64,000 bases of DNA, taken from contig NZ_WUMK01000011.1 in the NCBI RefSeq assembly GCF_009827055.1, positions 1 to 64,000 on the forward strand, in the 5' to 3' direction. Origin of the DNA: Shinella kummerowiae. Lineage in GTDB: Bacteria > Pseudomonadota > Alphaproteobacteria > Rhizobiales > Rhizobiaceae. Each line of letters opens with the position of its first letter. Within the stretch, counting starts at the first letter, position 1. Made by a program: the position numbers and the translations under genes. The notes below the pieces were generated by a model. The model had not been told where the DNA came from and did no database searches. It was given only the letters and a program-made list of their open reading frames with translations. This document shows, piece by piece, positions 34,023-54,306 of this stretch.

Positions 34023-34036
34023 CACCACCCGACAAA

Positions 34037-36416: not shown

Positions 36417-36429
36417 ATGCGACCAAGGT
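36417..36429 (+). promoter_or_regulatory. PQQ-module operator motif upstream of pqqA
   Basis: ATGCGACCAAGGT is one of seven copies of a motif with consensus ATRCGACCWWGGT found only in the 36-55 kb region, each at a promoter. The core CGACCWWGGTCG is palindromic, as expected for a LuxR-type dimer. Confidence 0.65.
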
Positions 36430-36448
36430 CTCGGGTCTCTCGATCGGG

Positions 36449-36895
36449 TCAGTTCACCGCCGCTGCCGCCAGCGCATCGAAGGCAGCCGTCATGCGCTCC
36501 GACGCCTTCTTCGGCAGCTTCACCGCTTTTGCAGCGTCAAGATTGGGGGAGCCATCGCCGACCCGGATGAGGGCGACCATGCCCATGCTGTAATGCGGCG
36601 AGCACTTCACGCCGTAGAAGCCGGGCTCGCTGACCGTCAGGACATATTCCTGGTTCACCTTGCTCTTGAAGGGTTTTACGCCCTCCGGAAGCATGCCCTT
36701 GATGCCCTCGACATTGTGGCTCTTGTCCGTCGGGATGAAGCGGATGGTATCGCCGGGTGCCGCCGCGATGGCGGCCGGTTCGAAGACCATGGCGCCGCTT
36801 TCGCCCTTGTTCATCATCTTGACGGCGTGCTCGGCCGCCTGTGCCGCACCGCTTGCAAGGATCATCAGGGCGGTTGCCGCGAGTAGCTTCTTCAT
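36449..36895 (-). CDS. Pseudoazurin-like copper protein of the PQQ module
   Basis: A 148-residue periplasmic type 1 copper protein, paralogue of the product at 15057-15503. The signal peptide ends GAAQAA; the ligands are in [11 protein letters not shown] (His) and [12 protein letters not shown] (Cys, His, Met). It lies between the histidine kinase and pqqA with its own operator (36953-36965), so it is likely an electron acceptor for the PQQ alcohol dehydrogenase route or a link from it to the respiratory chain. That role is an inference from position. Confidence 0.9.
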
Positions 36896-36952
36896 GTCCT
36901 TCCTCCTCCAATTCGGGTGGAAGGGATGTCCCATCTGGCACGCCGTGTCGCA

Positions 36953-36965
36953 ATGCGACCTTGGT
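36953..36965 (+). promoter_or_regulatory. PQQ-module operator motif upstream of pseudoazurin-like gene
   Basis: ATGCGACCTTGGT, consensus ATRCGACCWWGGT, 58 bases upstream of the ATG at 36895 and just after the kinase stop codon. It gives the copper protein its own promoter. Confidence 0.65.
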
Positions 36966-36971
36966 GCCGGG

Positions 36972-39164
36972 TCAGCTCGCGTGCAGCACGAAGGCCTCCA
37001 GCGCGTCCGCGGCGATCGGCTTGTACATGACCTCGATGCCCGCGGCGTCCGCGGCAAGCCGCGCCTGCGGCGTACGGTTGGCGGTGAGCAGGCGGGTGGG
37101 GCGCTCGCCATATTCCGCATGCAGCGCCAGCACGGTTTCGATGCCGGTGAGCGTGCCGTCGAGCTGCTGGTCGATCAGGTAAAGGTCGGGCACGATGCCG
37201 ATTTCCTCCAGCAGGGAGAGCGCCTCTTCGCCGCTTGCCGCTTCGAGCACGCTGACCCCGCGCCGCTCCAGCAGCAGGGAGATGGCGCGGCGCAGGTCCT
37301 CGTCGTTCTCCACGAGAAGCGCGATGCGATCGGAATTGTCGCCCGGCTCCTCGGGTATCGCCGGCGCGGTCTCCCGATAGGCCGGCTTGGCGTGGTGCGG
37401 GACGACGGCCAGATCGACGGCGAAACAGGTGCCGCGCCCCGGTTCCGAGTGAAGCGCCAGCCGGTGGCCGAGCAGGCCGCAGGCCCTTTCCACGATCGCA
37501 AGGCCGAGCCCCATTCCCTCCGATGCCGAGGCGGAGCCTTGGATGCGATGGAATTCACGGAAGATCGATTGCTGCTGGTCGGCTGCTATACCCGGTCCCG
37601 TATCATGCACCTCGATGCGCACATGCCCTTTCACCCGCCGCGGCCCGACGAGGACACGGCCGCTGCTCGTGTAGCGGATGGCGTTGCTGATCAGGTTCTG
37701 CAGGATGCGGCGCAGGTAGGTCGGGTCGCTCGATACGGTGAGGCCGCAGTGCAGGATGTCGAGCTGCAGGCCCTTGCGGGCGGCGATGGGAGCGAATTCG
37801 TCGGTGAGCTGGTTGAGCAGAACGGAAAGGGGAACCGGGCCGATATCGACCGCAGCGCCGCCGGCTTCCAGGCGCGAGATGTCGAGCAGGGCGCCGAGGA
37901 TCCCCTCCACGCTGACAAGGGCATTGTGTGCCTTTTCCAGCGTCCCGCACATCGGCGTGGCACCCGCGTCGTCACGCGCCGCCGCGACGAAGAGTTTTGC
38001 GGCCGACAGTGGTTGCAGCAGATCGTGGCTTGCCGCCGCGACGAAGCGGACGCGGGCGGAATTGGCGCGCTCGGCCTCGGCAAGCGCTGCGGCGAGATCC
38101 CCGGTGCGCGCCGCCACGCGCGCTTCCAGCGAGCTGTTGGCGCGGATCATGGCGTGAATGGCAAGGCGCTCGCGCGTCACGTCGGCAAACGACATGACGA
38201 AGCCGCGCCCCGGCATTTCCTGCGCAAAGACGTCGAGAATGATGCCCGAGACGTGCTGGAGTTCGAAGGACAGCGGTTCGCGCGGCAGGCGGCCGTCGAT
38301 CCATTGGCGCAGCATATCGGCGGAAAAACCGTCGCTGAGGGTGATCGAGCGGGCAATGCGGTCCGCCAGCAATTCGAACGGCGTTCCCCGCCGCAGCAGC
38401 CGCGGCGGAATGTCGAGAAGCTGCGCGACACGGCCGTTCCAGCCGGCCAGCCGGCGGTTTGCGTCGAAGATGCCGACGCCCTGGTTGATATGTTCCAGCG
38501 TCGCGCGGATCATGCGGGCCTGATCGTCAAGCAGCTTGCCGCGTTCCGAGCGCTCCATGCGGATGATGTCGGTGATATCCGTCTGGAGGATGACGGTGCC
38601 GCCATCGGCGGTGCGCTGCTCGCTGACCTGAAGCCAGCGGTCGCCGGTCAGCCCGACATTGAAGACCTGCCGGGTCCGATGCAGGCGCATGCGTTCCGCA
38701 GCCCAGGCCTTGACCGTCACGCCTTTGGGAAAGGCCAGCATCGTGGAACGGCTGACGATTTCCACATAATCGGCAAAGGCGATGCCTGGAAAGAGTTTCG
38801 GGCGAACGTCGGTGAGGTCGCGACAGAAGCGGGAATTGCACAGCACGAGGATGTCGGCGGGGTCGAAAAGGGCGAAACCTTCATCGACCGCCTCGATGGC
38901 CTGGGACAGATCGCGTCTCGCCCGCTCGGCCGCGCTGTTGGCGTCGTTGAGCTGCTTGAGCGTGGTTTCGAGGTCGCGCGTGCGCTGGCGCACCCGGTCC
39001 TCCAGAACGGCGGCGCGGCGAAACTGCTCGAAGGCCGCACCCCTGTCGCCGGAATTCTGCTCGACATGGCGAATGAGGGCATCGGCGATGACGAGCATCT
39101 TTTCGAGGTTTTTCGTCTCACCATCGGCGGGGTCGAGCAATCCTTCGGACAGGTGTGTGTTCAT
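36972..39164 (-). CDS. Hybrid sensor histidine kinase (PAS, HisKA, HATPase, REC)
   Basis: A 730-residue cytosolic protein without membrane helices. An N-terminal coiled coil (about 50-90) leads to two PAS-like domains (about 85-200 and 215-330), a HisKA box [14 protein letters not shown], ATPase boxes ([40 protein letters not shown]), and a C-terminal receiver with its aspartate in [10 protein letters not shown]. The overall layout is that of P. aeruginosa ErcS'/NahK. It overlaps the FIST gene by 4 bases, exactly the NosP-NahK pairing. It probably phosphorylates the response regulator encoded just upstream. Confidence 0.9.
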
Positions 39165-40312
39165 GGATCGCTTCCCGAAAGGATCGTGCCGGGCGGGTAG
39201 AAGGCAAAACCGGTCATGGTATGGTTGATGTGCATCGGGCCGATCTGTTCGCCATAGGTGGAAAAGCCGATCACGCCATGATGCCGCAGAAGCTCGGAAA
39301 CGCGGCCGGTCATCTGTTTTTCCTGCGCCTCGACGCGCCGCAGGATACAGTCGAAGGCAAGCACGGCGACGGGGTTTCCGGGCTGCTTCAGGGCCTGCAA
39401 TTCGCCCGCCAGGTGGTCCACGAGATCGTGCGGTTCGGCAATCGTGAGAACCATTCCCTCGTCGATCGCCGAAAAGAACAGGAGTTCGCCGGACGGCAGA
39501 ACGCGTTGGATAGCACGCACGTGGTGGCGCTCGCCCATGCGCACGGTAAGCGGATGGATCGCGAAGGTGAGGGTATCGACGCTTTCCGGCTGCATGCCGA
39601 TGAGACGGGCATATTCCTGCACGGCGGGTTCGGCGTTGATCTTTCGCACGATGCGGGCGGCAGGGTCGGCTTCCGTCACGACCATGCGCCGCTCCGTCGG
39701 CCTGATATGGTCCATTTTGAAGGCCCGCAGCGGACAGGCGCCGCGCATGACGGAAATCACCGCGGCATTCGCCAGAAGCCGCCTGCCGTCGAAGACGAGG
39801 GTTTCGCGGAAATTCGTGCCGTCGCCGGCCGATCCGCCGATGAGCGGCATCGCGCCCGTGCCGGCGGCGAGCACCGAAGCAAGTTCGTCCTCGCGCGCCG
39901 ACAACCCATCGACGAAAAGCAGCGCGAACTCTTCGGGCAGGTGCCCGTGATCGCGGGCGAGCGATTGCCTAACATGCAGCAGCGCCTCCGAAAGCTCGCT
40001 TGCCGCAAGCTGCGACAGATCCGGAATGAGCAGCGTTTGGGCCGCGAAATGGCGTGCACGGAAACCGATGGCGACGATGCTTCCGTCCTCATAGCCGGCG
40101 CCGGAGATTTCTCCGGCGGTGGTACAGCCGGCGATGCGCGCATCCGGCCAGGCCCTTGCCGCGCCCGAAACGATGCCGGGCACGTCGGCTTCCGGCGAGA
40201 CGAACAAAAGGACGAGCGAAAACGGGCCGGGACCGAGGCTTGATGCCAGCCTCTCGACCGCATGGGCGTCATGCGCCGATGCGAGCGCACGCGTGATGAA
40301 CTGTTCCTCCAC
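39161..40312 (-). CDS. FIST-domain sensory protein (NosP-like)
   Basis: A 383-residue soluble protein with FIST_N (about 30-220: IAGCTTAGEISGAGYEDGSIVAIGF, LFVDGLSAREDELASVL, LIGGSAGDG) and FIST_C (about 225-360: VQEYARLIGMQPES, IGFSTYGEQIGPMH). In several bacteria the FIST protein NosP binds NO by heme and controls the neighbouring hybrid kinase NahK. The same two-gene arrangement is seen here, with an ATGA overlap, so the pair may let NO or another small ligand modulate the alcohol oxidation module. Confidence 0.88.
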   Translation of the reverse strand: MEEQFITRALASAHDAHAVERLASSLGPGPFSLVLLFVSPEADVPGIVSGAARAWPDARIAGCTTAGEISGAGYEDGSIVAIGFRARHFAAQTLLIPDLSQLAASELSEALLHVRQSLARDHGHLPEEFALLFVDGLSAREDELASVLAAGTGAMPLIGGSAGDGTNFRETLVFDGRRLLANAAVISVMRGACPLRAFKMDHIRPTERRMVVTEADPAARIVRKINAEPAVQEYARLIGMQPESVDTLTFAIHPLTVRMGERHHVRAIQRVLPSGELLFFSAIDEGMVLTIAEPHDLVDHLAGELQALKQPGNPVAVLAFDCILRRVEAQEKQMTGRVSELLRHHGVIGFSTYGEQIGPMHINHTMTGFAFYPPGTILSGSDP

Positions 40313-40394
40313 GGGTGATGGCCTCCTCCGCCGTTTCCCCCGCCTTAAAGCTTAGAGCATCCATGATGACCGGACGCCAGCACGCAGTTCGTTG

Positions 40395-41081
40395 TCAGAT
40401 ATCGGTCGCCATGACGTTGAAACTTGCCTCCTGGGCGAAAAGCACGGCCTGCATGCGTGTCTGCACGCCGAGCTTTCGCATGATGGCGGTGACATGGGCC
40501 TTCACGGTGGTTTCCGCGATGGAAAGCTCATAGGCGATGTGCTTGTTCATGCGCCCGGCGCAGACGAGTTGCAGGATGCGCGCCTGCTGGCGGGTCAGCA
40601 ATGCCAGCCGCCTCACCGCTTCTTCGGATGGCGTCGGAGCCGAAGCTTCGAGCGCCATGCGGCTCGCATGGATTTCGCCGCGCGCGATGACGGCGAACGC
40701 CTCGCGGAATTCTTCGCGGGAGGCATGTTTGGGGACGAAGGCATTGACGCCGGCCTTGAGTGCTGCCCGCACGACGCGGATCTCGTCGAGCGACGAGACG
40801 ACGACAATCGGCGTGTCCGGCAGGGCGCGGCGCAGGCGCACCACCCCATCGAGCCCGTTGACGTCGGGAAGGTTGAGGTCCAGCACCACCACGTCGGGCA
40901 GCGGGCCGGTCTCCAGCCTCGCAAGTGCTGCCTCAAGCGCACCGACGGCCTCGACGTCCGGAATGCCGACCGGACCGGTCAAGGTCATCGCCAGCGCATC
41001 GCAGAACAGCGGGTGATCGTCGACGATCAGCGCCGATTTCAGCGTGCGCACGGGTTTGTCGGGGGCTGGGACTGGCATCAT
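40395..41081 (-). CDS. LuxR-type response regulator of the PQQ module
   Basis: A 228-residue NarL/FixJ-family regulator. The receiver domain shows ALIVDDHPLF and the phosphorylated aspartate in VVVLDLNLPDVNG; the HTH is LTRQQARILQLVCAGRMNKHIAYELSIAETTVKAHV. It resembles AgmR, ErdR and FlhR regulators of PQQ alcohol dehydrogenase genes. It lies 82 bases ahead of the FIST gene on the same strand. The recurrent palindrome in this module is its likely binding site. The start may be one codon later (41078). Confidence 0.9.
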   Translation of the reverse strand: MMPVPAPDKPVRTLKSALIVDDHPLFCDALAMTLTGPVGIPDVEAVGALEAALARLETGPLPDVVVLDLNLPDVNGLDGVVRLRRALPDTPIVVVSSLDEIRVVRAALKAGVNAFVPKHASREEFREAFAVIARGEIHASRMALEASAPTPSEEAVRRLALLTRQQARILQLVCAGRMNKHIAYELSIAETTVKAHVTAIMRKLGVQTRMQAVLFAQEASFNVMATDI

Positions 41082-41165
41082 GCGAAATTCCCGAAAGGGC
41101 TGGCGATAGCTTAGCATTGATTTCGTCCGTCTTCATCGGCCTTGTTGGCCCGTGCAGAAAGCAGG

Positions 41166-41189
41166 AAGCCGGGCGTTTCCGCCCGGCTT
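41166..41189. terminator. Terminator after the PQQ alcohol dehydrogenase gene
   Basis: AAGCCGGGCG and CGCCCGGCTT form a 10-base stem around a TTTC loop, 6 bases beyond the alcohol dehydrogenase stop codon. Confidence 0.7.
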
Positions 41190-41195
41190 GTCGTC

Positions 41196-42962
41196 TCAGT
41201 CCAGCGCTGCGAGCTGTTTTGGCAGGCGGAAGGTCCAGACCATGCCGCCCTGGTTGAGATAGTTGACCTTCTTGGCCACTTCGCCGCCCCAGAGCGGAAC
41301 CGCGCCGCCCCAGCCGGAAATCACCGAGACATATTGCTCGCCGTCCTGTTCCCAGGTCACCGGCTGTCCGACGATCCCGGAGCCGGTCTGGAACTTCCAG
41401 AGCTCCTCGCCGGTCTCGTTGTTGAGGGCGACGAAATCGCCTTCGGGCGTGCCGAAGAAGACGAGGCCGCCGGCGGTGGTCATCGCGCCGCCCCAGAGCG
41501 GAGCGCCGTTCTTGTATTCCCACTTGATCTCGCCGGTATTGGGGTCGATCGCCTTCAGGCTGCCGATATGGTCCTCGAAGAGCGGCTTGATGGTGAAGCC
41601 AGCGCCGAGATAGGCGGCACCCTTCTTGTAGCTGATCGGCTCGTTCCAGATGTCCATGCCCCACTCGTTGGAGGGAACGTAGAACAGGCCGGTCTTCGGG
41701 CTGTAGGCCATCGGCATCCAGTTCTTGCCGCCGAGGAACGACGGCACCGCGAAGACCTGCTGGCCCTTGGCGCCATCGGCGGCGGCAGCGGCATCGCCCG
41801 GACGGTTGTCTTCGTTGTAGATCGGGCGGCCCGTCTCATCGATGCCCTTGGCCCAGCTGATGTTCTTCACGAAGGGATGGGCGGAGACGAACTTGCCGTC
41901 CTCGCGGTTCAGCACGTAGAAGAAGCCGTTGCGGTCCGCCGTTGCGAAGCGCTTGTTGCCGTCCTTGTCGACGAAGGGCACGACCTCGTTGACGCCGTCG
42001 AAATCCCAGCCTTCGCGCGGCGTGGTCTGGAAGTGCCACTTGATCTCGCCGTTTTCCGGATCGATGCCGATGCGCGATGCGGCATAGAGGTTGTCGCCCT
42101 TGTTGCCGTCCACCGGCTTGCCGGCGCCGCGCAGGTGGCTGTTCCAGGGCGAGGGGTTGCCGGCGCCGAAGACGAGCGTCTTCGTGTCTTCGTCATAGGA
42201 GCCGCCGAGCCAGGTCGCGCCGCCGCCGGTCTTCCACATATCGCCGGGCCAGGTCGCGTTCAGCGTCCCGGTCATCGTGCTTTCCTTGCCCTTGAAGGTG
42301 CCCATGTGGCCTTCGATCACGGGCCGGGTCCAGACAAGCGCGCCGGTCTCGGCATTGCGCGCCTGCACCTCGCCGACGACGCCGAATTCGCCGCCGGAAT
42401 TGCCCGTGACGACGAGGCCGTTCACGATCAGTGGGGCAGCGGTATAGCTGTAGCCTTCCTTGTAGTCGGCGATCTTCTTGTTCCAGACGACATCGCCCGT
42501 CTTGCGATTGAGCGCCACGAGGCGGGCATCGAGCGTGCCGAAAAAGATGTTGTCGCCGAAGATCGCCGCGCCGCGGTTGACCACGTCGCAACAGGGCAGG
42601 ATGCCTTCCGGCAGGCGGGCATCGTACTGCCAGACTTCCTTGCCGGTCTTGATGTCGATGGCGTAGAGGCGGCTGTAGGAGCCGGTAATATACATCATGC
42701 CGTCATAGATGATCGGCTGGCTTTCCTGGCCGCGCTGCTTTTCGCCGCCGAGCGAGAACGCCCAGGCCGGCAGCAGGTTCTTGACGTTCTTCGTGTTCAG
42801 CGTCTCCATCGGCGAGAAGCGCTGCAGGCCGCGCCCCATGCCGTTGGTCAGCACGTCGGCGGCGGTTTCGGCGTCCTTTGCGAGATCCTCCTCCGTTACG
42901 CCGGCCTGCACGGCACCCGCACAGGCAATGGCCGCAACCGCGGCCAGAACGAGACTCCTCAT
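41196..42962 (-). CDS. PQQ-dependent alcohol dehydrogenase, ExaF/PedH-like
   Basis: A 588-residue periplasmic quinoprotein with an eight-bladed propeller that oxidises alcohols with PQQ. The signal peptide ends AGAVQA. Family features are ENDLTNGMG-type start of the mature protein ([20 protein letters not shown]), the vicinal disulfide in [12 protein letters not shown], and tryptophan-docking repeats. The metal site reads [10 protein letters not shown]: the extra aspartate two residues after the catalytic one is the hallmark of lanthanide-dependent enzymes. It resembles ExaF/PedH ethanol dehydrogenases more than methanol-type XoxF. Two operator motifs lie 84-141 bases upstream. Confidence 0.92.
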
Positions 42963-43045
42963 GGCATCCTCCCACTCCCTGCCCGCAGATCGATGCGGGC
43001 TTCATGGCGTGGATCATCTGCTCACTCTTGCAACGGATGAATTGG

Positions 43046-43059
43046 ACCTTGGTCGTAAT
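43046..43059 (-). promoter_or_regulatory. PQQ-module operator motif, dehydrogenase/importer promoter (site 1)
   Basis: On the minus strand this reads ATTACGACCAAGGT, close to consensus ATRCGACCWWGGT. It is 84 bases upstream of the alcohol dehydrogenase start and 96 from the divergent substrate-binding protein. Confidence 0.65.
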
Positions 43060-43091
43060 GCCGAGACCCCGATGTCTTTGGGGACCCCCAA

Positions 43092-43103
43092 TAGGTCGTA
43101 TAT
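43092..43103 (-). promoter_or_regulatory. PQQ-module operator half-site, dehydrogenase/importer promoter (site 2)
   Basis: On the minus strand this reads ATATACGACCTA, the conserved left half of the motif with a degraded right half (TTGG). It is 52 bases from the start of the plus-strand gene. Confidence 0.45.
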
Positions 43104-43154
43104 CGGGCCGTGGCGGCGGCGGATAGCATCGCTGGAACAGGGGGAGGAGAGCCC

Positions 43155-44129
43155 ATGACAATCCTGAAATCGCTTGTCGGAGTGGCATTTGCCGCGGTTA
43201 TGTCCAGCCTGCCGGCGCTCGCCGAGCCGACTGTCGTGCGCGCCGCGCTCCAGCTTTCGGGCACCGTAAACTGGGAAGTCGATACGATCCGTCACTACGG
43301 TTTCGACACGGCGAACGGCTTTACCATGGAGGTGATGGACATTGCCGGCGCTCCCGCGGCCCAGATTGCGCTCGTCGGGGGCGAGGTGGACGTCATCGTC
43401 TCCGACTGGCTTTGGGTGGCGCGGGAGCGGGCCGCCGGCCGCGACGTCGTGTTCATTCCCTATTCGCGTGCGGTCGGCGGCCTGATGGTGCCGGCGGACA
43501 GCACGGCGAAAAGCCTTTCCGACCTGAAGGGCCAGAAGATCGGCGTCGCCGGCAGCCCGATCGACAAGAGCTGGCTGATCCTGCGTGCCTATGCGCAGAA
43601 GGTGGAGCATTTCGATCTTTCCGGCACGACCGAGCAGGTCTTCGGCGCGCCGCCGTTGATCTACAAGGCCGCGCTCGACGGCGAGGTGCAGGGCGCCCTG
43701 AACTTCTGGAATTTTGGCGCACGGATGCAGGCGGCGGGCATGCGCACGCTGGTCGGCGTCGAGGAGGCCGCGAGAGCCCTCGGCCTCGATCCGGAAACAC
43801 CGCTGATCGGCTACGTGGTGCGGGGCGACATCCTGAAGAGCCATCCCGGACTGGGCGAGGCGATCGCCACCGCCTCGCGCCAGGCGAAGGAAAGGCTTTC
43901 CAATGATCCAGCCGCCTGGGAGCGTATCCGGCCGATGATGCGGGCGGAGACCGATGCGGAATTCGAGGCGCTGAAGGCGGGTTTCCTCGCGGGCACGCCG
44001 GAAAGGCGCGCGGTGGACGAAAAGGCGGCCGCACGCATGCTGGCCATCATGACCGAGCTCGGCGGCGCCGATCTGGTCGGCGACCTGAAAGAGCTGCCCG
44101 ATGGCGTCTTCCACCACCCCGGCAGTTGA
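43155..44129 (+). CDS. NMT1/THI5-like ABC transporter substrate-binding protein
   Basis: A 324-residue periplasmic protein with a signal peptide ending PALAEP and an NMT1-type fold (VVRAALQLSGTVNWEVDTIRHYGFD, IALVGGEVDVIVSDWLWVARER, GQKIGVAGSPIDKSWLILRAYAQK). Its ligand is unknown. It is divergent from the alcohol dehydrogenase gene and overlaps the ATPase gene by 29 bases; the matching permease lies 10 kb away at 54307. Because it is under the module promoter, the ligand might be an alcohol, a cofactor or a metal chelate. Confidence 0.85.
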   Translation: MTILKSLVGVAFAAVMSSLPALAEPTVVRAALQLSGTVNWEVDTIRHYGFDTANGFTMEVMDIAGAPAAQIALVGGEVDVIVSDWLWVARERAAGRDVVFIPYSRAVGGLMVPADSTAKSLSDLKGQKIGVAGSPIDKSWLILRAYAQKVEHFDLSGTTEQVFGAPPLIYKAALDGEVQGALNFWNFGARMQAAGMRTLVGVEEAARALGLDPETPLIGYVVRGDILKSHPGLGEAIATASRQAKERLSNDPAAWERIRPMMRAETDAEFEALKAGFLAGTPERRAVDEKAAARMLAIMTELGGADLVGDLKELPDGVFHHPGS

Positions 44130-45269: not shown

Positions 45270-45293
45270 GGCAGTTCTCCTTTGCGGCCCTGG

Positions 45294-46136: not shown

Positions 46137-46846
46137 GGCCGATCTCCCGTGAGCGCAAGAAATCGGCCGGTCAAATCCGTACCGCCAATGTCTCCGGCTT
46201 CGCCATCGGCCAGCACCCGGCCGTGGTGAAGGATGACGAGCCGGTCCTGCCGGCGCACTTCATCCACCAGATGGGTCGCCCAGAGCACCGTCAGCCCACC
46301 TGCCGCAAGGTCGTGCACGTGCTGCGTGATGGCGGCGCGCGAGGCTGCGTCCAGTCCGACCGTCGGCTCGTCCAGCAGCAGCACGTCGGGCCGGTGGATG
46401 AGGGCACGCGCGATTTCCATGCGCCGGCGGTGGCCGCCGTTCAGCCTTGCGGCCTTCTCCTCCGCGCGTTCCGCCATGCCGAGCCTTTCGAGCGCCGCCA
46501 TGGCGCGCGCCTCCGCCTCCCGCCCGGAAAGCCCGTGCAGGGCTGCGAAGTAAAGCAGGTTGCGCCTGACGGTCAGGTCCGGATCGAGCGTCGAAGCCTG
46601 GAACACGACGCCCATGCCGGCAAGGGCGGCGCGCGGCGCGCGGGCCATGTCGTGGCCGGCGATCGCGATGCGGCCCGTGCGCGGCGTGAAGAGCCGTGTC
46701 AGCATGCCGAACAGCGTCGATTTCCCGGCGCCGTTCGGCCCGAGCAGGGCGCAGAAACGGCCGCGTTCGACGGTAAAGGACACGCCGTCGAGGGCGCGCC
46801 GGGCGCCCCAGTCGTGGCTGATATCCTCTACCGTCAAGCCGCTCAT
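46133..46846 (-). CDS. ABC transporter ATPase of the PQQ-alcohol system
   Basis: A 237-residue ATPase partner of the ABC-2 permease. Walker A is LLGPNGAGKSTLF, Q loop VVFQASTLDPDLT, signature LNGGHRRRMEIARALI, Walker B VLLLDEPTVGLD. The overlap with the permease gene and the position after the 151-residue exported protein place it in one operon. Confidence 0.9.
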   Translation of the reverse strand: MSGLTVEDISHDWGARRALDGVSFTVERGRFCALLGPNGAGKSTLFGMLTRLFTPRTGRIAIAGHDMARAPRAALAGMGVVFQASTLDPDLTVRRNLLYFAALHGLSGREAEARAMAALERLGMAERAEEKAARLNGGHRRRMEIARALIHRPDVLLLDEPTVGLDAASRAAITQHVHDLAAGGLTVLWATHLVDEVRRQDRLVILHHGRVLADGEAGDIGGTDLTGRFLALTGDRP

Positions 46847-46853
46847 GTGTTGC

Positions 46854-47309
46854 TCATTCTATGGTGATCGAGACCTGTTGCGTATCGCCCGTGCTGCCGG
46901 GCACCTTGAGGTGATAACTGCCCGGCTTGATCGCGATGAAGCTGATCTCCGCTTCGCCCGCCTCGTCGAATTCGATGGAATCGACGCCGAGCGGCCGGAT
47001 CTCGATGCCCTCGATGACGATCTCGTTGACCCAGACGGCGCGGAAGAAACCGGCCCCCTCCAGCGCCAGTTCCTGGCTGCCGTCCGCCTTGATTTCCAGC
47101 GTGTAATATTTGCCGGATTTCAGCGTCAGCGCGCCCTTGGCAACCGGCTGGCCTGCCGACAGGGTAAGTTCGGGCAACGCTTCGCGATTGGATTTGGACA
47201 GGATGCCGGCAAGGCCCATGCCGGCTTCGGCCTTGTTGTCGTCGTCGTCCGCCAGCGCCACGAACGGCACGGCGACAAGCGCGATGGCGGTCAGGATTGC
47301 TCTTTTCAT
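46854..47309 (-). CDS. Exported beta-rich protein of the PQQ module, unknown
   Basis: A 151-residue protein with a signal peptide ending FVALA and an acidic start (DDDDNKAE). The rest looks like a beta sandwich (GKYYTLEIKADGSQELALEG, GSYHLKVPGS). No catalytic or cofactor motif is visible; it lacks cysteine, and has one histidine. Homologues in this gene context are usually listed as hypothetical. It lies between the beta-propeller protein and the ABC ATPase with gaps of 20 and 7 bases. Confidence 0.7.
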   Translation of the reverse strand: MKRAILTAIALVAVPFVALADDDDNKAEAGMGLAGILSKSNREALPELTLSAGQPVAKGALTLKSGKYYTLEIKADGSQELALEGAGFFRAVWVNEIVIEGIEIRPLGVDSIEFDEAGEAEISFIAIKPGSYHLKVPGSTGDTQQVSITIE

Positions 47310-47329
47310 GATGTCCTCCTCTTCGACTC

Positions 47330-48295
47330 TTATGGCCGGCTCGCCGCGCCCCAGGGGAAGCGCCCGACCTTGATGGATTTCACGGGTTCCAGCGAGGCGA
47401 CGTCGATGACGGTCACGTCGCCGGAGACACCGTTGGTGGTGAAAAGCTGCGTGTGGTCCGGCGAGAAGGCGAGGTGCCAGACCCGCCGGCCGACGAGGAC
47501 GTAGGACTTGACCGCGAACGTATCGGCATCGATCACCGCGACATGGTTGGCAGGGCCAAGGGCGACGAAGGCGGTCTTGCCGTCCGGCGTGAACTCGAAG
47601 CCGACGGGCTGGACGAGGTCGGCATTGACGCCGGTGATCTCGAAGCGGATCTTGGCCTTTTCCGCCTGCGTGGCTACGTCGAAGACGGTGATCGTGCCGC
47701 CGATTTCGGACGAGACCCAGAGCTCCGTTCCGCCCTTGGCGAACTCCGCATGGCGCGGACGGGAATCGACGAGCGTGTTGGCGAAGATCGTCTTCGTGCC
47801 GGTGTCGATCCAGTGCGCCATGTTCGTCGTTTCCGACGTGGTGATGACGATCTTGCCATCCGGCGAGACCGCCATGCCTTCCGGCTCGATGCCGACATTG
47901 ACCTGCGCCACGACCTGCCGGGTCTCGACATCGACGACCGTCGTCACGGCATCGTCCTCGTTGGCGATCCATAAATGCTTGTCGTCCGGGGCGAGCACGA
48001 ACTGCTCGGGGTCCTCGCCGGAGGGCAGGTCGTGCAGGATCTCGCCGGTCGCGGGATCCATGACCTGGACCGTGTCGCTGTCGGAGGCGCAGATATAGAC
48101 GCGGCTGTGGTCGGAATTGAAGGTGATGCCGCGCGGCCGCTCGCCGGTCTTGATGGTGCGCACCATTTCCAGCGTCAGCGTGTCGATCACGGAAATCGTG
48201 TCGTCCTTCTCGTTCGTCACCCAGATCTCGCCGGCAATCGCCGGAAGCGGCATGGCGGCCAGCATGGGCGCGATCAGCAGGGCCGGAAATTTCAT
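47330..48295 (-). CDS. YVTN beta-propeller protein of PQQ-dependent catabolism
   Basis: A 321-residue periplasmic propeller protein with a signal peptide ending PAIAG and repeats such as GEIWVTNEKDDTISVIDT, KHLWIANEDDAVTTVVD and TVIDVASLEPVKSIKVG. It matches the PQQ-associated beta-propeller family seen beside ABC genes of alcohol oxidation. It probably assists the dehydrogenase or the transporter; the exact role is unknown. It begins one base before the end of the preceding gene's stop codon region (gap of 1 base). Confidence 0.88.
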   Translation of the reverse strand: MKFPALLIAPMLAAMPLPAIAGEIWVTNEKDDTISVIDTLTLEMVRTIKTGERPRGITFNSDHSRVYICASDSDTVQVMDPATGEILHDLPSGEDPEQFVLAPDDKHLWIANEDDAVTTVVDVETRQVVAQVNVGIEPEGMAVSPDGKIVITTSETTNMAHWIDTGTKTIFANTLVDSRPRHAEFAKGGTELWVSSEIGGTITVFDVATQAEKAKIRFEITGVNADLVQPVGFEFTPDGKTAFVALGPANHVAVIDADTFAVKSYVLVGRRVWHLAFSPDHTQLFTTNGVSGDVTVIDVASLEPVKSIKVGRFPWGAASRP

Positions 48296-48296
48296 C

Positions 48297-49484
48297 TCAT
48301 CCTCCAAAGGCAGTGCAGGTGCTTTCGGGCCGGTCGAGGCCCAGCGTGTCCATTTCGTTGGTCTGGTGCAGGTAGCCGTCGAGTGGTGCCAGTTCGACCA
48401 GCGCGCGGGCGTTGACCACCGCCATCGGCTGGCGCAGCTGGCCATCCCAGTCGCGATAGGTGAGGCTGCGGCCCTTGAAGCCGTCGAGCGCGAATTTTTC
48501 CGAGAGGATGAAGGTGCGTAGTACGGCGGGATCGGCGGAATTGGTTCGCGTGACGGCCTCGCCGATGGTGCGCAGCGCCGTCCACGCGGCGTAATCGCGC
48601 GAGCCCATCTCGCGGCCGGCCGCCTTTTCGAAGCGGTTCTGGAGCTGCACGGCGGCCCATTGTTCCAGCACCGTCGCCCAGCCCTCGCCGCGCAGGCCAT
48701 CGGAGCCCGCGACCGGTCGCGGCAGCCAGGTATTGTCCTGAACGTAACGCGCGAAATCGTCGGCCTCGTCGGAAATCAGCAGGATGTCATGGTCGGGAAA
48801 ATCCTGGGTGAAGAGGGGGATTTCCTGGCCGGCGGCGCGCCGCAGGTCCGTGTCGAACGTCCAGTCCTTCGCGGCAAGGATTTCGACGCCGAATTTTTGC
48901 GCGGAGGCGCGCAGCGTGTCGGCGAAGGCGCGGTCCTCCGGCTTCGGTCCAGCGATTAGCACCGTGCGGGTCCAGCGCCGCGCCTTCAGCACCTGCATCA
49001 GCGCATCCGCGCGCATGGCATCTTCCGCCATGGTGTGCAGCACGTTCGCGCGGCAGTCGGCGTCCCGCAGCCGTCGCGCGCCGGATGAGACGTTGAAGAG
49101 CAGCGCGCCCTTGGCTTCCGGCAGGTCGGCCACGGCGAGAATGCCTTCCGGCGGCGCGTCGATGAACAGGATCTTGGACGTGGCAAGCGCCTTGCGGGCG
49201 GCGTCGAGGAAGTCGCCATCGGATTCGACCGAGAGCAATGCGAGGCTGTAGTCGTGGCCCATGAAGGTGCCGGTGGTCTTGGTATCGGTCAGCGCCACCT
49301 CGGCGCCGGCAATGCCGCGGTCCTCCGGAATCGGATCGAGATTGGAAAGCACCGGCGGCGCCTGCATCTCCTGGCGGAGATAGGTCATCGATATGGCAAT
49401 GTCGGCTGCGGCTGAGGACGCCCAGCAGAAAGCCGCAGCCGCAAGCCACAAGCCTTTCCGGCTCCCTTTGAAGCATTCCCGCAT
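48297..49484 (-). CDS. Branched-chain-type substrate-binding protein of the PQQ-alcohol system
   Basis: A 395-residue periplasmic binding protein (type I fold) with a signal peptide ending ASSAAADI. Segments such as DIAISMTYLRQEMQAPPVL, GIAGAEVALTDTKTTGTFMG and FKGRSLTYRDWDGQLRQPM match the family found next to PQQ dehydrogenase ABC genes. First gene of an operon that continues through the propeller, ATPase and permease genes. The start at 49484 is chosen as the first ATG leading into the signal peptide. Two operator motifs lie just upstream. Confidence 0.85.
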   Translation of the reverse strand: MRECFKGSRKGLWLAAAAFCWASSAAADIAISMTYLRQEMQAPPVLSNLDPIPEDRGIAGAEVALTDTKTTGTFMGHDYSLALLSVESDGDFLDAARKALATSKILFIDAPPEGILAVADLPEAKGALLFNVSSGARRLRDADCRANVLHTMAEDAMRADALMQVLKARRWTRTVLIAGPKPEDRAFADTLRASAQKFGVEILAAKDWTFDTDLRRAAGQEIPLFTQDFPDHDILLISDEADDFARYVQDNTWLPRPVAGSDGLRGEGWATVLEQWAAVQLQNRFEKAAGREMGSRDYAAWTALRTIGEAVTRTNSADPAVLRTFILSEKFALDGFKGRSLTYRDWDGQLRQPMAVVNARALVELAPLDGYLHQTNEMDTLGLDRPESTCTAFGG

Positions 49485-49531
49485 GTCGCATCCTCCCGCA
49501 ACAACCATGTCGCCAAGGGGGAGAGCTAGAA

Positions 49532-49544
49532 ATACGACCTTGGT
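49532..49544 (+). promoter_or_regulatory. PQQ-module operator motif, binding protein/cytochrome c promoter (site 1)
   Basis: ATACGACCTTGGT, exact to consensus ATRCGACCWWGGT, 48 bases upstream of the minus-strand binding protein gene. It is paired with a second inverted copy 14 bases on. Confidence 0.65.
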
Positions 49545-49558
49545 GCCATGCGCCGCCG

Positions 49559-49575
49559 CGACCTAGGTCGAATAT
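49559..49575 (-). promoter_or_regulatory. PQQ-module operator motif, binding protein/cytochrome c promoter (site 2)
   Basis: CGACCTAGGTCG (49559-49570) is a perfect 12-base palindrome, the best version of the motif core. It is 59 bases upstream of the cytochrome c gene, and the minus strand reads ATTCGACCTAGGT. Confidence 0.68.
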
Positions 49576-49633
49576 CGCGCTGCGTCCGTGCTGCCTTACA
49601 AAATGCGCAGTTGGAAATGCGAAGGAGGACGGC

Positions 49634-50320
49634 ATGTCGGCCAACATCATTCGCGGCGGGGTCGCCGCATTCATTCTCATGGCGACGACGAGCCTGGTGA
49701 TTGCGCATGGCGATGTCGCGCCGCAACCGGTCAATACCGATGCGCTTCCCGAAGTGGGCGAGGAGTGGTTGACCGAAAACCCCTATCGCGAGGCGAAGAT
49801 CGGCCATGAGGCCTGGTTGAAGGCCGTCGAGATCGGTGCCTCCGGCTATACCCAGAACTGCGCGCGCTGTCATGGCTTGGGTGCGGTGTCCGGCGGGCTT
49901 GCGCCGGACCTGCGCTTTCTGGAAGCGGAAGAAGTCGGCGACGAGTGGTTCGTGGAGCGCTTCCGGCACGGTTATACGCAGGACGGCACGACCAAGATGC
50001 CGGCCTTCGGCGACATTCTGGGCCAGAAGGCCGCCTGGGCGATCCGCACCTATGTCGAGACACGGCCGGAGGACGGCGCGCTCGACGCCCACGCAAAGCG
50101 CCTCCATGAAATCCGCGACGAACTCGGCAGCGGCAAGGTGGCCGATACGGGCGCGATCAAGAAGGAACTGGAGACGATCGCGACCGAAGTGAAGACCGCA
50201 TCCGGCGCGCCGGTTGCCGACAGCGTCACCTATGAGGCTGCGCGCATCCTCTCGGACAAGCCGGAAAGCTGGAAGAAGGCGGCCGAGGTGCTGACGGTCG
50301 GCCTTTCGGCCACGCAGTAA
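49634..50320 (+). CDS. Cytochrome c-550 (PedF-like), electron acceptor of the PQQ dehydrogenase
   Basis: A 228-residue periplasmic monoheme cytochrome c. Signal peptide ends TTSLVIAHG. The heme site is QNCARCHGLGAVSGG and the methionine ligand is in TTKMPAFGD. It resembles the PedF-type cytochrome c-550 found with ethanol quinoproteins. A C-terminal helical extension (residues 150-228) has no evident cofactor. Followed by the XoxJ-like protein after 6 bases. Confidence 0.9.
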   Translation: MSANIIRGGVAAFILMATTSLVIAHGDVAPQPVNTDALPEVGEEWLTENPYREAKIGHEAWLKAVEIGASGYTQNCARCHGLGAVSGGLAPDLRFLEAEEVGDEWFVERFRHGYTQDGTTKMPAFGDILGQKAAWAIRTYVETRPEDGALDAHAKRLHEIRDELGSGKVADTGAIKKELETIATEVKTASGAPVADSVTYEAARILSDKPESWKKAAEVLTVGLSATQ

Positions 50321-50326
50321 CCTGCC

Positions 50327-51223
50327 ATGTTGCGCCGTGCATTTCTGGCCATGGTCCTCGGCGTCGCCCTTCCGGGGGGCGCCTTCGCGCGCTGCGAGGA
50401 CTATGTGCCCCAGGCCAAGCCGCAGAACACTTTCGCGCAGGATGTCGGGCGCGAATTCGACCGGATCATCGAAGACGGCTGGATCGAGTTCGCCGTCTAC
50501 GAGAACTATGCCCCGTGGTCCTATGAAAAGAAGGGCAAGGCGGTCGGCGTGGATATCGAGATCGGCCGTCTGGTTGCGAAGGCCCTCGGCGTCGAGGCGA
50601 AGTTCCGCCTTGTCGCGGCCGGCGAGAATCTCGAAGCCGATCTGTTGAATTATGTCTGGAAGGGCGCCGCCGTCGGTGGGCGGGTCAGCGACGTGATGCT
50701 GCATGTGCCCTATGACAGCGCGCTCGTCTGCCGCATCGAGCAGGTGAGTTTTACCGGGAAATACGCCAAGGAAAGCATCGCCATCGCCTATCGTGCGTCC
50801 GACTACGAAGAGAAGGCGCCGACCCCGCCCTTCTTCCGGTTCGATGCGGTGGCGGTCGAAAACGACGCGATCTCTGACTTTTACCTCACGTCCCTGATCG
50901 GCCCGGTCGACAAGATCCACCGTTATCGCTCGACCGCAGCGGCGATGGACGGCCTGGCGGACGGCGACACCAAGGCGGCGATGGGGCCTCGCGCGGAGCT
51001 GGAATCCGGTCTCGTGCGCCATCCGGATGCCGGGCTGAAGGTCCATTCTCCGCCGCTTGTCGGCTTCGCGCGTGGCAGCTGGACGATTGGCGTGGGTGTG
51101 AATTTCCAGCACAAGGACCTCGCCTATGCCGTCGACGAGGCAATCGAAAAGGCGCTTGCCAGCGGGGAAATCTCGCGTGTTTTCGAGGCGCATGGCCTGA
51201 CCTTCACGCCGCCCGAACGATAG
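50327..51223 (+). CDS. XoxJ/MxaJ-like periplasmic binding protein
   Basis: A 298-residue protein with a signal peptide ending GGAFAR and the fold of amino-acid binding proteins (EDGWIEFAVYENYAPWSYEKKG, AVGVDIEIGRLVAKALGVEAKF, GVNFQHKDLAYAVDEAIEKAL). Such proteins accompany PQQ dehydrogenases and the cytochrome, as XoxJ or MxaJ, and are thought to help activate the dehydrogenase instead of acting in transport. The gene is directly after cytochrome c-550. Confidence 0.85.
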   Translation: MLRRAFLAMVLGVALPGGAFARCEDYVPQAKPQNTFAQDVGREFDRIIEDGWIEFAVYENYAPWSYEKKGKAVGVDIEIGRLVAKALGVEAKFRLVAAGENLEADLLNYVWKGAAVGGRVSDVMLHVPYDSALVCRIEQVSFTGKYAKESIAIAYRASDYEEKAPTPPFFRFDAVAVENDAISDFYLTSLIGPVDKIHRYRSTAAAMDGLADGDTKAAMGPRAELESGLVRHPDAGLKVHSPPLVGFARGSWTIGVGVNFQHKDLAYAVDEAIEKALASGEISRVFEAHGLTFTPPER

Positions 51224-51225
51224 GC

Positions 51226-52101
51226 TCAGAAGGTTGAAACATCGCCGGCCTCATCGACCGCGGTGACGCGCGTGATGCCGGGAACACGGCGCAGGGTCGC
51301 GCGGATTTCATCGCGTGTCATCAGGCAGAAGGCGGTCGAAAAGCCGTCCGCCATGGCGGCACTTTCTGCCTCCACCGAGATAGTCGACCAGCAGGGGCGC
51401 TCACCACGGGGTCCCAGAATATGGAAGCCCGTGCCGAGCATCATGGCCGAAGGGCTTGAGGTCGCAATGGCGTTGCCGGCGAGGCGCCGCGTGGCGATCT
51501 GGCCTAGGGCAGGATCTTCGACGGCTACGCTGAACGGGCCGCCAATGGCGGCAAACTCCCCCATGTCCACGAAGGCCTGCGCATAGCCTTCTTCCAGCAG
51601 CAGGCGGCGGACCCGATCAGCCGCGTAGCCCTGCGCGATGCCGTTCAAGGTCAGCGCTTGGCCGTGAGCAAGCTGGATGGATGGTTCGATGCGCACCCGC
51701 TCCCAGCCGATCGCGGCCTGTGCTTCGGTGACGTCGCGTGCTTGGGCAAGCGCGCGCCAGAGGGGCTGCACCGTCGGGTCGAAACGACCGGCCGTTGCCT
51801 GATGGACGTGGTTGGCGAGGCGTAGGAGATCGAGAAGGGCTGGCGGCGGATCGTCCAGATGGCCTGCGGCATTCAGCCTGCTGAGGGCGGAACCGGTTTT
51901 GAACAGGCTGGCCGCTGCCTCGACTTCGGCAATCGTGCTGCCGATCCGTCCGACAATATCCTGCGCAAGGCCGCGCGTGCCGCGCAGATCCACCCGTACC
52001 GTGCCGCCAAGCATGTCTGTCTGCCAGGTCGTGTTTTCAGCGCGCGCGGCGCCGGAAAACGCAGCCGCCGCGGCGATGAACAGGAACCGCCGTCGCTTCA
52101 T
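51226..52101 (-). CDS. ApbE-family FMN transferase
   Basis: A 291-residue exported enzyme that attaches FMN to a threonine of a partner protein. The N-terminus MKRRRFLFIAAAAAFSGAARA is a signal with a twin-arginine-like start. Family features are NGIAQGYAADRVRRLL, FVDMGEFAAIGG and AAMADGFSTAFCLM. The start overlaps the end of the NosR-like gene by 4 bases. Its likely substrate is the FMN-binding domain of that neighbour; the same pair (NosX/NosR) occurs with nosZ in other rhizobia. Confidence 0.9.
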   Translation of the reverse strand: MKRRRFLFIAAAAAFSGAARAENTTWQTDMLGGTVRVDLRGTRGLAQDIVGRIGSTIAEVEAAASLFKTGSALSRLNAAGHLDDPPPALLDLLRLANHVHQATAGRFDPTVQPLWRALAQARDVTEAQAAIGWERVRIEPSIQLAHGQALTLNGIAQGYAADRVRRLLLEEGYAQAFVDMGEFAAIGGPFSVAVEDPALGQIATRRLAGNAIATSSPSAMMLGTGFHILGPRGERPCWSTISVEAESAAMADGFSTAFCLMTRDEIRATLRRVPGITRVTAVDEAGDVSTF

Positions 52102-54194
52102 GCTGATGCCTCCACCTTGGCAAGCGCCTGAATCGGCGGGCGCTTTCGTTGCGCCAGCACCAACGGCACGCATTGCTGCGCGTCGTCGTGGATCGAAACG
52201 CAGTCGAGACATTGGAAACATTCGCTGTAGGCGATCTCGCCCGTCTTGCGGATGGCGCCGTAGGGGCAGCGCACGCGGCAGAGCTGGCAGGGCGAGCCGC
52301 ATTCGGCGCGGCGGGGTATCCAGGAGCGGGTGCGCAACAGGCCGCCGAGCGCCATGACCGCGCCGAGAGGGCAGACATAGCGGCAGAAACCCTTGAAGGT
52401 CGTTGCTGCGAGGAGCAGCCAGAAGACGGCATAGGCGACGTAGTACCATTCGCGCTGGAAGAGCGTGGTGACCGCCGTCTTGAAGGGCTCGATCTCGGCT
52501 GCGGTTTCAATCTTTTCGGGTGCGAGAAAGGTGACGGCGACCAGGCCGGCGAGCGAAATCCATGCGCCAGCCTTCAACCGTCTGTCCCAGATCGGTGAGG
52601 GGTTCCATTGCGGCAGCCGAAGCAGGCGGCCGGCATGATGGGCGAATTCCTGCATGGCGCCGAACGGGCAGAGCCATCCGCAGAACAGGCCGCGTCCCCA
52701 CAAGACAAATCCAAGGATGGAGGCGCCCCAGACCATGAGGGAGAAGGGATCGTAGAGCAGGACCGCCAGGCTGCCGCCGCTATTTGCGGCCCGAAGTGCC
52801 GCGAGTGGCGTAACGATCGAAAGCTGGCCCTGGCCCCACCAGCCCACGAAGCCGATCATCAGGCCCAGAAAGGCCAGCCGTGCCGGGCGCAGCAACGTCG
52901 GCGCGGCGAGCCGGTGCATGCCGGGGCCGACTGCGCCGATCAATCCCGCAAGCAGGATGCCAAGCCCGGCAACGTCCCATTTTCGATCGACGATCGCGGC
53001 CTGCCAGGGTGGCAGCGCCTTTGACGTTTGCGGGCGCAGGAAGAAAGCGGGGTCGGCCTTCAAGTCGAGCGGAAAATGGACCGAGCCCATTTCCGGCTTC
53101 AGCATGCCGTGGGCGCGCACGGCCTGGGCGGAGAGTATCCAGTCGCGCGTGGGGTCGAAACCGAGGCGCCGGTCGATCCTCAGGACCATCGTCGTGCCCT
53201 GCGGCACATCCCGCCGCGTCTCGACCATCATGTCGGCATCGCGAAGGGCGACCGGCAGGCCGTCCTGCACGGCCGCAAGCCGGTCCGGCGCCGTGTTGCG
53301 CACGAAATCCGCCGACACCAGCCCGTGGCGGCCGCCATCGATGATGAGCATGGGCTCGTCGTCCGGCGATACGCGCAGCAGGCGTTGAAGATCGGCGAAA
53401 CTCTCCTCGCTCAGGACGGCCCGGGCGATGGACGGCGGACCGATGTCGACCACCCACAGATCGAGGAACAGGCCTTGCGGATCATCCGCCGCCTCGGGAT
53501 CGTCGCGCGCCCAGATCGTCGTCTTGAAGCCGTCGTCGAGTTCGGCGTTGGTTACCTTCAGGTTCCGGGCCAACCCTCGCTTGACCAGTTCCGCCCAGTC
53601 GAATGTCTCGTCTATCGATGGATCGGGGTGCACCGGCGGGCCGCTCGCCACGCCCTGCATCTTCTCGCGCGCGACGGCGAGCGTTGCGGCGAGGATCGAC
53701 TCGTGCGCGATGCGAACGGAGGCCGTGGCTTTCGTCACCCCGTCGAGATAGACGAGATCGGAGCCGCCGCCGGCCTCGCCATACGGCGTGCCGACAACGA
53801 GCGCTTCCCGGATCGAATGGCCGCGATATTGTTCGAGGAATGCGCGCAGCGGCGCTTCGCCCAGGCCGGAAACGAAGATCGGCTCGTTGTGGGCAATAAG
53901 GCGCACATCGAGAAAGCGGCCATCGCGGTCGATCGTCACGAGCATGTTGATGGGAGCGCCGGAAAAGCCCGGAAGCGGCGCCAGCGGACCGGTCTCGAAA
54001 ACGTAACCCGCCTCCGCGCCACCGGAATTCAGCAGCGTCCACACGCCCTTTTCATTCACCGGCTCGCCGAGCGCGTAGGGCGGCACGATCAGGCCTGCAA
54101 GCGCATCGCGATCGAGCGGTGCTGCGCCCGCCATCCCGGCGCAGGCGAGCAGGCTGAAAACGAGAAAGCTCAGCAGGGCAAAGCGTCGTCTCAT
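52098..54194 (-). CDS. NosR/NirI-like flavo-iron-sulfur membrane protein
   Basis: A 698-residue protein: signal peptide (ends GMAGAA), a periplasmic FMN-binding domain (about 75-190) with DGVTKATASVRIAH, which matches the ApbE acceptor pattern Dxx(T)xAT, a second periplasmic part (about 200-400), five or six helices with two CxxxCP motifs (FCGWLCPFG, FCRYVCPLG), and two 4Fe-4S sites near the C-terminus (CGSPCQLCRVRCP and CFQCLDC). This is the NosR layout, but no nosZ is nearby. In this module it may pass electrons to or from the periplasm for dehydrogenase activation. Divergent from the ABC permease, with an operator between them. Confidence 0.9.
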   Translation of the reverse strand: MRRRFALLSFLVFSLLACAGMAGAAPLDRDALAGLIVPPYALGEPVNEKGVWTLLNSGGAEAGYVFETGPLAPLPGFSGAPINMLVTIDRDGRFLDVRLIAHNEPIFVSGLGEAPLRAFLEQYRGHSIREALVVGTPYGEAGGGSDLVYLDGVTKATASVRIAHESILAATLAVAREKMQGVASGPPVHPDPSIDETFDWAELVKRGLARNLKVTNAELDDGFKTTIWARDDPEAADDPQGLFLDLWVVDIGPPSIARAVLSEESFADLQRLLRVSPDDEPMLIIDGGRHGLVSADFVRNTAPDRLAAVQDGLPVALRDADMMVETRRDVPQGTTMVLRIDRRLGFDPTRDWILSAQAVRAHGMLKPEMGSVHFPLDLKADPAFFLRPQTSKALPPWQAAIVDRKWDVAGLGILLAGLIGAVGPGMHRLAAPTLLRPARLAFLGLMIGFVGWWGQGQLSIVTPLAALRAANSGGSLAVLLYDPFSLMVWGASILGFVLWGRGLFCGWLCPFGAMQEFAHHAGRLLRLPQWNPSPIWDRRLKAGAWISLAGLVAVTFLAPEKIETAAEIEPFKTAVTTLFQREWYYVAYAVFWLLLAATTFKGFCRYVCPLGAVMALGGLLRTRSWIPRRAECGSPCQLCRVRCPYGAIRKTGEIAYSECFQCLDCVSIHDDAQQCVPLVLAQRKRPPIQALAKVEASA

Positions 54195-54242
54195 GCCGCG
54201 ATCCTCCCAACCCGATCTCTACGCGCCAGGCGAAAGGCCGCC

Positions 54243-54255
54243 ATACGACCAAGGT
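54243..54255 (+). promoter_or_regulatory. PQQ-module operator motif, NosR-like/permease promoter
   Basis: ATACGACCAAGGT, exact to consensus ATRCGACCWWGGT, followed by CG to complete the palindrome. It is 49 bases from the NosR-like start and 52 bases from the permease start. Confidence 0.65.
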
Positions 54256-54306
54256 CGCGGATCGGGTGGCAACCGTGGCGGCTATATTCGGTTCGGGAGA
54301 ATTCGC

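Follow-up and report, generated by a model that had tools for sequence, protein, structure and literature searches.

A conserved palindromic promoter box in a PQQ alcohol-oxidation module of Shinella kummerowiae, and the LuxR-type regulator predicted to bind it

A palindromic box recurs at the promoters of a pyrroloquinoline quinone (PQQ) alcohol-oxidation module in a 64,000-nucleotide stretch of Shinella kummerowiae DNA (the window; positions 1–64000 of contig C3, in a genome of 6.34 Mb in 41 contigs). The motif is real, promoter-located, and strongly conserved, and we consider it quite probable that it is an oriented activator site bound by the LuxR-type regulator encoded within the module (40395–41081). 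In the proposed mechanism the phosphorylated regulator, as a dimer, would bind a 6-4-6 inverted repeat, T-R-C-G-A-C-CWWG-G-T-C-G-Y-A, centred near −45 and next to RNA polymerase, and when bound would switch on the genes for the dehydrogenase, cytochrome c, and pseudoazurin, the transporter operons, the pqqA unit, and the paired NosR-like and permease genes. The regulated set would thus be a lanthanide-type PQQ alcohol-oxidation module, and the regulator would correspond, in Alphaproteobacteria, to AgmR/PedR1/ErbR and probably also to FlhR, fed by its NahK-like neighbouring kinase or by another.

The box in the window, the genome, and related loci

Scanning the window with CGACCWWGGT gave eight strand-wise matches at six places, all within 36–54 kb; dinucleotide shuffles gave a mean of 0.47 matches, and none of 100 reached eight. 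The longer form, ATRCGACCWWGGT, is exact at four sites (36417, 36953, 49532, and 54243), and the two copies on the minus strand, 43046 and 49559, have a single mismatch apiece, in the ATR part of ATRCGACCWWGGT. An earlier reading made without database searches (the sequence-only reading) had listed these six copies and a half copy at 43092, with coordinates that proved correct; the half copy reads TACGACC-TATTGG on the minus strand. That reading had also pointed to a perfect palindrome at 49559, which we confirm (49559–49570), and had overlooked the other perfect palindromic core of the window, at 54246–54257. The boxes are listed here with, in brackets, the orthologues that keep them.

36418–36433, minus strand: box facing pqqA, CGAGACC-TTGGTCGCA (5/7 pqqA orthologues)
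36954–36969, minus strand: box facing the pseudoazurin gene (20/20)
43042–43057, minus strand: box facing the dehydrogenase gene, TACGACCAAGGTCCAA (32/42)
43085–43100, plus strand: half box facing the NMT1-like binding-protein gene, CCCCCAATAGGTCGTA
49533–49548, minus strand: box facing the transporter operon, TGGCACC-AAGGTCGTA (38/39, upstream of the binding-protein gene)
49557–49572, plus strand: box facing the cytochrome c gene, CGCGACC-TAGGTCGAA, with a perfect core (39/43)
54244–54259, no single strand: box between the NosR-like and permease genes, facing both, with the perfect core CGACCAAGGTCG

All six full copies lie between genes, as had been claimed, if gene starts are chosen, as we did, by family matches and by Shine-Dalgarno-like stretches. 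Under a simple open reading frame (ORF) caller that takes the longest start, 4/6 module places were intergenic versus 3/28 outside the module (chance probability 0.0096); the copies at 36953 and 54243 then fall inside 5′ ORF extensions, upstream of the likely pseudoazurin and permease start codons, and counting them as intergenic gives 6/6 (6e-5) in a comparison that is not like for like.

The claim that no copy exists outside the module was nearly right. The genome holds five exact copies of ATRCGACCWWGGTS, four of them in the module and the fifth within an ORF (C5:99918). With at most one mismatch there are 34 places, six in the module; all 28 others were examined, and 25 lie inside called ORFs and three between genes, namely C12:498682 (before a CoA-transferase-like gene), C38:424789 (before a chemoreceptor-like gene), and C40:323036, the gene names being assigned by eye. 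Only the C38 site among these three has the full palindrome, and a wider regulon in this genome was rejected on these counts. The 12-base perfect palindrome occurs at 12 genome places, and all 10 outside the window are within predicted ORFs. When the bases of the half-site CGACC were put in 20 orders, the number of perfect palindromes in 1.56 Mb was 26 for the real order, eight for the runner-up, and 0–2 for the others.

For the position-matrix scan that the sequence-only reading had proposed, a matrix built from the six full window sites only was run over the region from 250 bp upstream of each orthologue to 30 bp inside it, the orthologues having been located by tblastn in related loci (the best 80 among the listed relatives of the module regulator, all used). 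Orthologous promoters keep the box: besides the counts given with the boxes, matches of at least 9 bits lie upstream of the NMT1-like (15/17), NosR-like (10/10), and permease (9/13) genes, and dinucleotide shuffles gave 0–3.5%. These counts are not independent, because divergent gene pairs share one region. Eight non-target genes had matches at the same threshold in 0–6% of upstream regions: FIST 1/77, ATPnmt 1/32, ATPpq 1/36, ABC2 0/29, small protein 0/24, beta-propeller 0/33, family 3 binding protein (SBP3) 2/35, and ApbE 0/11. Across the 80 whole loci, 86/92 matches of at least 18 bits, and 111/131 of at least 15 bits, fell within the 2.5% of bases upstream of orthologous targets. The real matrix gave 140 matches at 12 bits in target upstream regions, versus at most three for any of 100 symmetric permutations of it.

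These controls bear on whether the recurrence could reflect chance or the shared descent of neighbouring DNA, an explanation that we regard as extremely improbable. Close relatives do have intergenic DNA in common by descent, but the box is kept where the regulator is only 57–65% identical and the flanking DNA is unalike, and neither shuffles nor permuted matrices reproduce it. A chance origin was rejected on the shuffles, the half-site permutations, and the matrix permutations. Of 21 same-genus genomes, the eight with the module regulator have 4–7 exact copies of ATRCGACCWWGGTS each (42 in total, 34 in the module), and the 13 without it have five in all; this distribution is that of a self-contained module and is not proof of binding.

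Twenty matches of at least 15 bits in the 80 loci lie outside the eight sets of target upstream regions, 11 of them intergenic and nine inside called ORFs. A number of these matches precede cytochrome c, Sel1, CoxG-like, or regulator genes (names by eye); extra boxes before cytochrome c-like and Sel1-like genes occur in five loci (L048, L072, L074, L086, and L088). In three Rhodobacteraceae loci that have no alcohol module (L053, L070, and L083), a box precedes a CoxG-like gene, again named by eye, that adjoins the gene for this regulator, which hints that the protein has a further role.

Orientation of the box and distance to the −10 element

Promoters of the related loci (78 non-redundant out of 166) were aligned on one dyad each, that of the site nearest the gene. 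The conserved profile across them is T..GACCWWGGTC..A, and the box is oriented, its better-kept half, GGTCGNAT, being the gene-proximal one. A −10-like TA is found at +33 from the dyad in 23/78 promoters (the mean rate beyond +12 is 0.029), and TANNNT begins at +32 or +33 in 15/78. A −10 element beginning 33 bp from the dyad would place the dyad near −45, a position estimated from spacing and the one expected of an activator site. It would agree with the published position, −52 to −36, of ACTU, a site whose mutation abolishes activation of acs (PMC5715377).

Four promoters of the window (cytochrome, permease, NosR-like, and NMT1-like) have a clear −10 element, the dyad of the 43092 half copy being placed two bases off. 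The region between the binding-protein and cytochrome genes mostly holds two boxes (35 of the 39 cytochrome upstream regions with a match), and of the two present in the window one has its kept half towards each gene. Such paired, oriented boxes are what an activator acting beside RNA polymerase needs, and suggest activation.

Fixed spacing to the −10-like TA and a better-kept gene-proximal half would also suit the −35 element of a special sigma factor, in which case the palindrome would not be an operator. We think this very unlikely, as the box has dyad symmetry, a single box at 54244 is common to two divergent genes, the dyad lies near −45 and not −35, and the sister motif ACTU works through a LuxR-type regulator.

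The candidate binder and its sister regulator

A family scan of the 18 longer module genes found the LuxR-type regulator (40395–41081) to be the sole protein with a DNA-binding domain, which upholds, for those genes, the claim that the module encodes only one; a Crp/Fnr-type regulator (35140–35835) lies just outside. The best named match of the LuxR-type regulator is NF041830 (ErdR) of NCBIfam, at 154 bits with the cut-off of 390 not reached, and its closest solved relative is NarL. The regulator, FIST-protein, and kinase genes occur together in 76/80 loci. This arrangement, a NosP-like gene, a NahK-like kinase gene, and a LuxR-type regulator gene beside a PQQ alcohol module, is the setting of AgmR/PedR1/ErbR, the NosP and NahK models scoring below their cut-offs; in P. 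putida the matching neighbours are PP_2663 (NosP-like), PedS1, and AgmR/PedR1. The module regulator is 37–39% identical to the Pseudomonas AgmR/PedR1 counterpart, and the recognition helices are near-identical in the module regulator (TTVKAHVTAIMRKL), the Pseudomonas-like AgmR orthologues (TTVKAHVSAILRKL), and a CrbR-like protein encoded elsewhere in the genome (ATIKAHVSAILLKL).

Upstream of the orthologous transporter operon, TACTACCTTGGTAC is present in 7/7 Pseudomonas-like loci (family f44), one of which (L196) encodes a dehydrogenase matching P. aeruginosa 1flg (E 7e-209). Among the other 23 loci of the set, the half-site pattern was absent from those of f3 (10), f1 (3), f2 (2), f5 (1), and f81 (1), and from one of two f17 and one of three f55 loci; it was degenerate or variant in two f55, one f51, and one f17 loci.

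The sequence-only reading knew of no described operator of this form. For ErdR (= CrbR) there is one, the gammaproteobacterial ACTU, for example TACTACCATCGTCGAAT and TAATACTAAGGTCGTCT, with the build TWCKAC-N4-GTMGWA (PMC5715377; Sepulveda and Lupas 2017). ACTU has the same 6-4-6 build as the module box, being an imperfect inverted repeat with half-sites 4 bp apart, and is read by a LuxR-type regulator of the same clade. It differs in controlling the acetate genes acs and actP and in its variable centre and fourth base, whereas CCWWGG and a G as the fourth base are retained in the window boxes. For the AgmR/PedR1/FlhR branch the claim stood, in that no operator was found in the open-access literature, several of the searches being weak and older papers possibly having one in print; the main text of the 2026 PedR1 paper contains no wording on a motif, palindrome, binding site, electrophoretic mobility shift assay, footprint, consensus, or operator (PMC13390443). 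The module box would then be an ACTU-type site in a variant particular to the AgmR/PedR1 branch, with the module regulator as its predicted binder.

A second class of site is seen at C38:424789 (L150 1998–2013), where the 6-4-6 palindrome TACGAC-TTTG-GTCGCA lies about 100 bp before the chemoreceptor-like gene. Read as TGCGAC-CAAA-GTCGTA, it is kept in 12/20 same-genus loci looked at; in the other eight the alignment covered the first 180 query bases only and no site was seen. Because same-genus genomes that lack the module regulator also retain it, we leave it out of the regulon. It is more ACTU-like than the module box, and the CrbR-like protein is its likely reader. In P. fluorescens an ACTU site likewise stands before a chemoreceptor gene. 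At C12:257059–261215 (L125 6060–10216) the gene for the CrbR-like regulator is convergent with that for a 1167-residue SLC5-type histidine kinase-like protein (CrbS-like, by eye).

Several observations weigh against an activator site read by the module regulator. No −10 element is visible at the other four window promoters, and activation is uncertain for the clade because most tested targets of P. aeruginosa ErdR rose in the erdR mutant, i.e. looked repressed (PMC9927353). Upstream regions of the regulator (14/80), kinase (8/77), and Sel1 (8/20) genes match at 9 bits or more and are not clean negatives; there may be autoregulation in some lineages. Ten of the 42 dehydrogenase upstream regions fall below 9 bits; in seven of these the dehydrogenase is 50–53% identical (L028, L030, L031, L034, L038, L040, and L042), and in three it is 83–86% identical (L048, L066, and L072). 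Twenty loci of 13–20 kb from across the phylum contained the box (at most one mismatch) in 7/9 with an AgmR-type helix and also in 4/11 without it; contig ends truncate two of these last four. Part of the presence/absence link among same-genus genomes is to be expected in any case, since the sites move together with the regulator gene as a single module. PedS1 is dispensable for PedR1 action in P. putida (PMC13390443), so the partner may be a kinase other than the neighbouring one. Finally, the genome encodes the CrbR-like regulator of the same clade (214 bits with NF041830, cut-off 390), so that a second regulator could read such sites.

This last point leads to a different account, in which the boxes are ACTU sites whose main reader is the CrbR-like acetate regulator of the chromosome, and the module is tied to acetate and not to its own regulator. 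The presence of that regulator beside a large kinase gene, its nearly identical helix, and the common build of ACTU and the module box all fit this account, as does the chemoreceptor-like site, since six of its 12 occurrences are in genomes without the module regulator and some other regulator must read them. However, the centres of those 12 sites are CAAA, GAAA, or GAAG (either strand) and not CWWG inside GAC-GTC on both sides, the scarcity of exact ATRCGACCWWGGTS in the 13 genomes without the module regulator is at odds with a CrbR-like reader, and no ACTU-type site of at least 10/12 was seen in this genome at the two acs-like loci (L211 and L212). We therefore consider the acetate account rather unlikely and prefer binding by the module regulator. 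The operator and regulon proposed by the sequence-only reading stand to the extent that a conserved box marks the transcription units and the regulator is the best candidate binder; the operator type is not an undescribed one.

The module, its truncated pqq operon, and related systems

The remaining features of the module are listed below; sixteen of its proteins are 95–100% identical to those of a Shinella lacus locus (L015).

36105–36236, minus strand: pqqB remnant, about 46 codons
36250–36351, minus strand: pqqA, 33 residues (TIGR02107, 33.2 bits, cut-off 20)
36449–36895, minus strand: pseudoazurin (TIGR02375, 170 bits, cut-off 110)
36972–39164, minus strand: hybrid histidine kinase, NahK/ErcS′-like (NF041832, 331 bits, below the cut-off of 400; Pfam)
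39161–40312, minus strand: FIST-domain protein, NosP-like (NF041558, 356 bits, below the cut-off of 450)
40395–41081, minus strand: LuxR/NarL-type response regulator, the proposed binder (Response_reg and GerE)
41196–42962, minus strand: PQQ alcohol dehydrogenase, predicted lanthanide type, PedH-like (TIGR03075, 771 bits; WDFDGVNE)
43155–44129, plus strand: NMT1/THI5-like substrate-binding protein
44101–44781, plus strand: ATP-binding cassette (ABC) ATPase
44721–45269, minus strand: Sel1-like protein (PF08238, 27.1 bits, below the cut-off of 30.7)
45294–49508, minus strand: PedA1A2BC-like transporter operon (TIGR03861, TIGR03864, TIGR03866, and TIGR03863, each above cut-off), comprising PedC (45294–46136), an ATPase (46133–46846), a small protein with no family found (46854–47309), a beta-propeller protein (47330–48295), and a binding protein (48297–49508)
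49634–50320, plus strand: cytochrome c-550 PedF (TIGR04494, 194 bits, cut-off 122)
50327–51223, plus strand: family 3 substrate-binding protein
51226–54194, minus strand: ApbE-like (51226–52104) and NosR-like (52098–54194) genes (NosR model, 423 bits, below the cut-off of 1000)
54307–55104, plus strand: ABC permease

Two points absent from the sequence-only reading concern the dehydrogenase and the pqq genes. The best solved relative of the dehydrogenase is PedH (6zcv), a lanthanide enzyme. An additional aspartate two residues after the catalytic one (WDFD) is what we take to be the rule for lanthanide PQQ alcohol dehydrogenases; the window enzyme has WDFDGVNE, and the 43 locus matches comprise 35 with WD[FY]DGVNE, six with WDFSGNNE, and two with no match, all of which indicates that the dehydrogenase is of the lanthanide (PedH) type. 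The pseudoazurin, present in 20/80 loci, may accept electrons from the dehydrogenase. PedA1A2BC of P. putida is described as the lanthanide transporter (PMC12997753).

The operon behind the pqqA box is truncated. The homology to S. lacus runs out within pqqB, near 36114, leaving a pqqB of about 46 codons, and the sequence beyond the break (31444–35835) holds a cluster of denitrification type (NnrS, multicopper oxidase, FGE-sulfatase domain protein, and Crp/Fnr). No second pqqB was found in the genome, and a protein search of it found no pqqC, which the same search recovered from 4/4 sibling genomes as positive controls. With pqqB cut short and pqqC not found, the pqqA box serves a broken operon; the strain probably needs PQQ from outside, and the conserved box would be a relic in this strain.

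Among the closest known systems is the Pseudomonas PedS1-PedR1 (AgmR/ErbR) system, which shares with the module the NosP-like protein, NahK-like kinase, LuxR-type regulator, PedA1A2BC, PedF, and PQQ dehydrogenase, together with an activator that acts on ped and pqq genes in Pseudomonas (PMC12997753; PMC13390443), and the TACTACCTTGGTAC box at the matching promoter in Pseudomonas-like loci. In contrast, no PedS2/PedR2 pair was seen in the module, and the Pseudomonas-like half-site is TACTAC rather than TACGAC. Paracoccus FlhSR is likewise a two-component regulator of C1 oxidation in an alphaproteobacterium (PMC8879981). Most Paracoccus loci in our set have the regulator-FIST-kinase set, and their equation with flhSR is putative. 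NarL-type operators are also read by a LuxR-type helix-turn-helix, but the NarL operator sequence differs from the module box.

We regard as evenly balanced the possibility that the AgmR/PedR1/FlhR regulon for alcohol oxidation is defined, in Alphaproteobacteria through to Pseudomonas, by one operator code, KACC-WW-GGTM, and that bacteria which also have CrbR separate the two circuits through the strict central C/G pair, despite a nearly identical helix in both regulators. In Pseudomonas, PQQ alcohol oxidation is known to have AgmR/PedR1 as its master activator, and direct action of this regulator is argued for in a 2026 paper (PMC13390443). The box provides a defined target for mutation in both Pseudomonas and Alphaproteobacteria and would make the regulon predictable from sequence, and it raises the question of what prevents crosstalk between two sister regulators whose DNA-reading helices are nearly the same.

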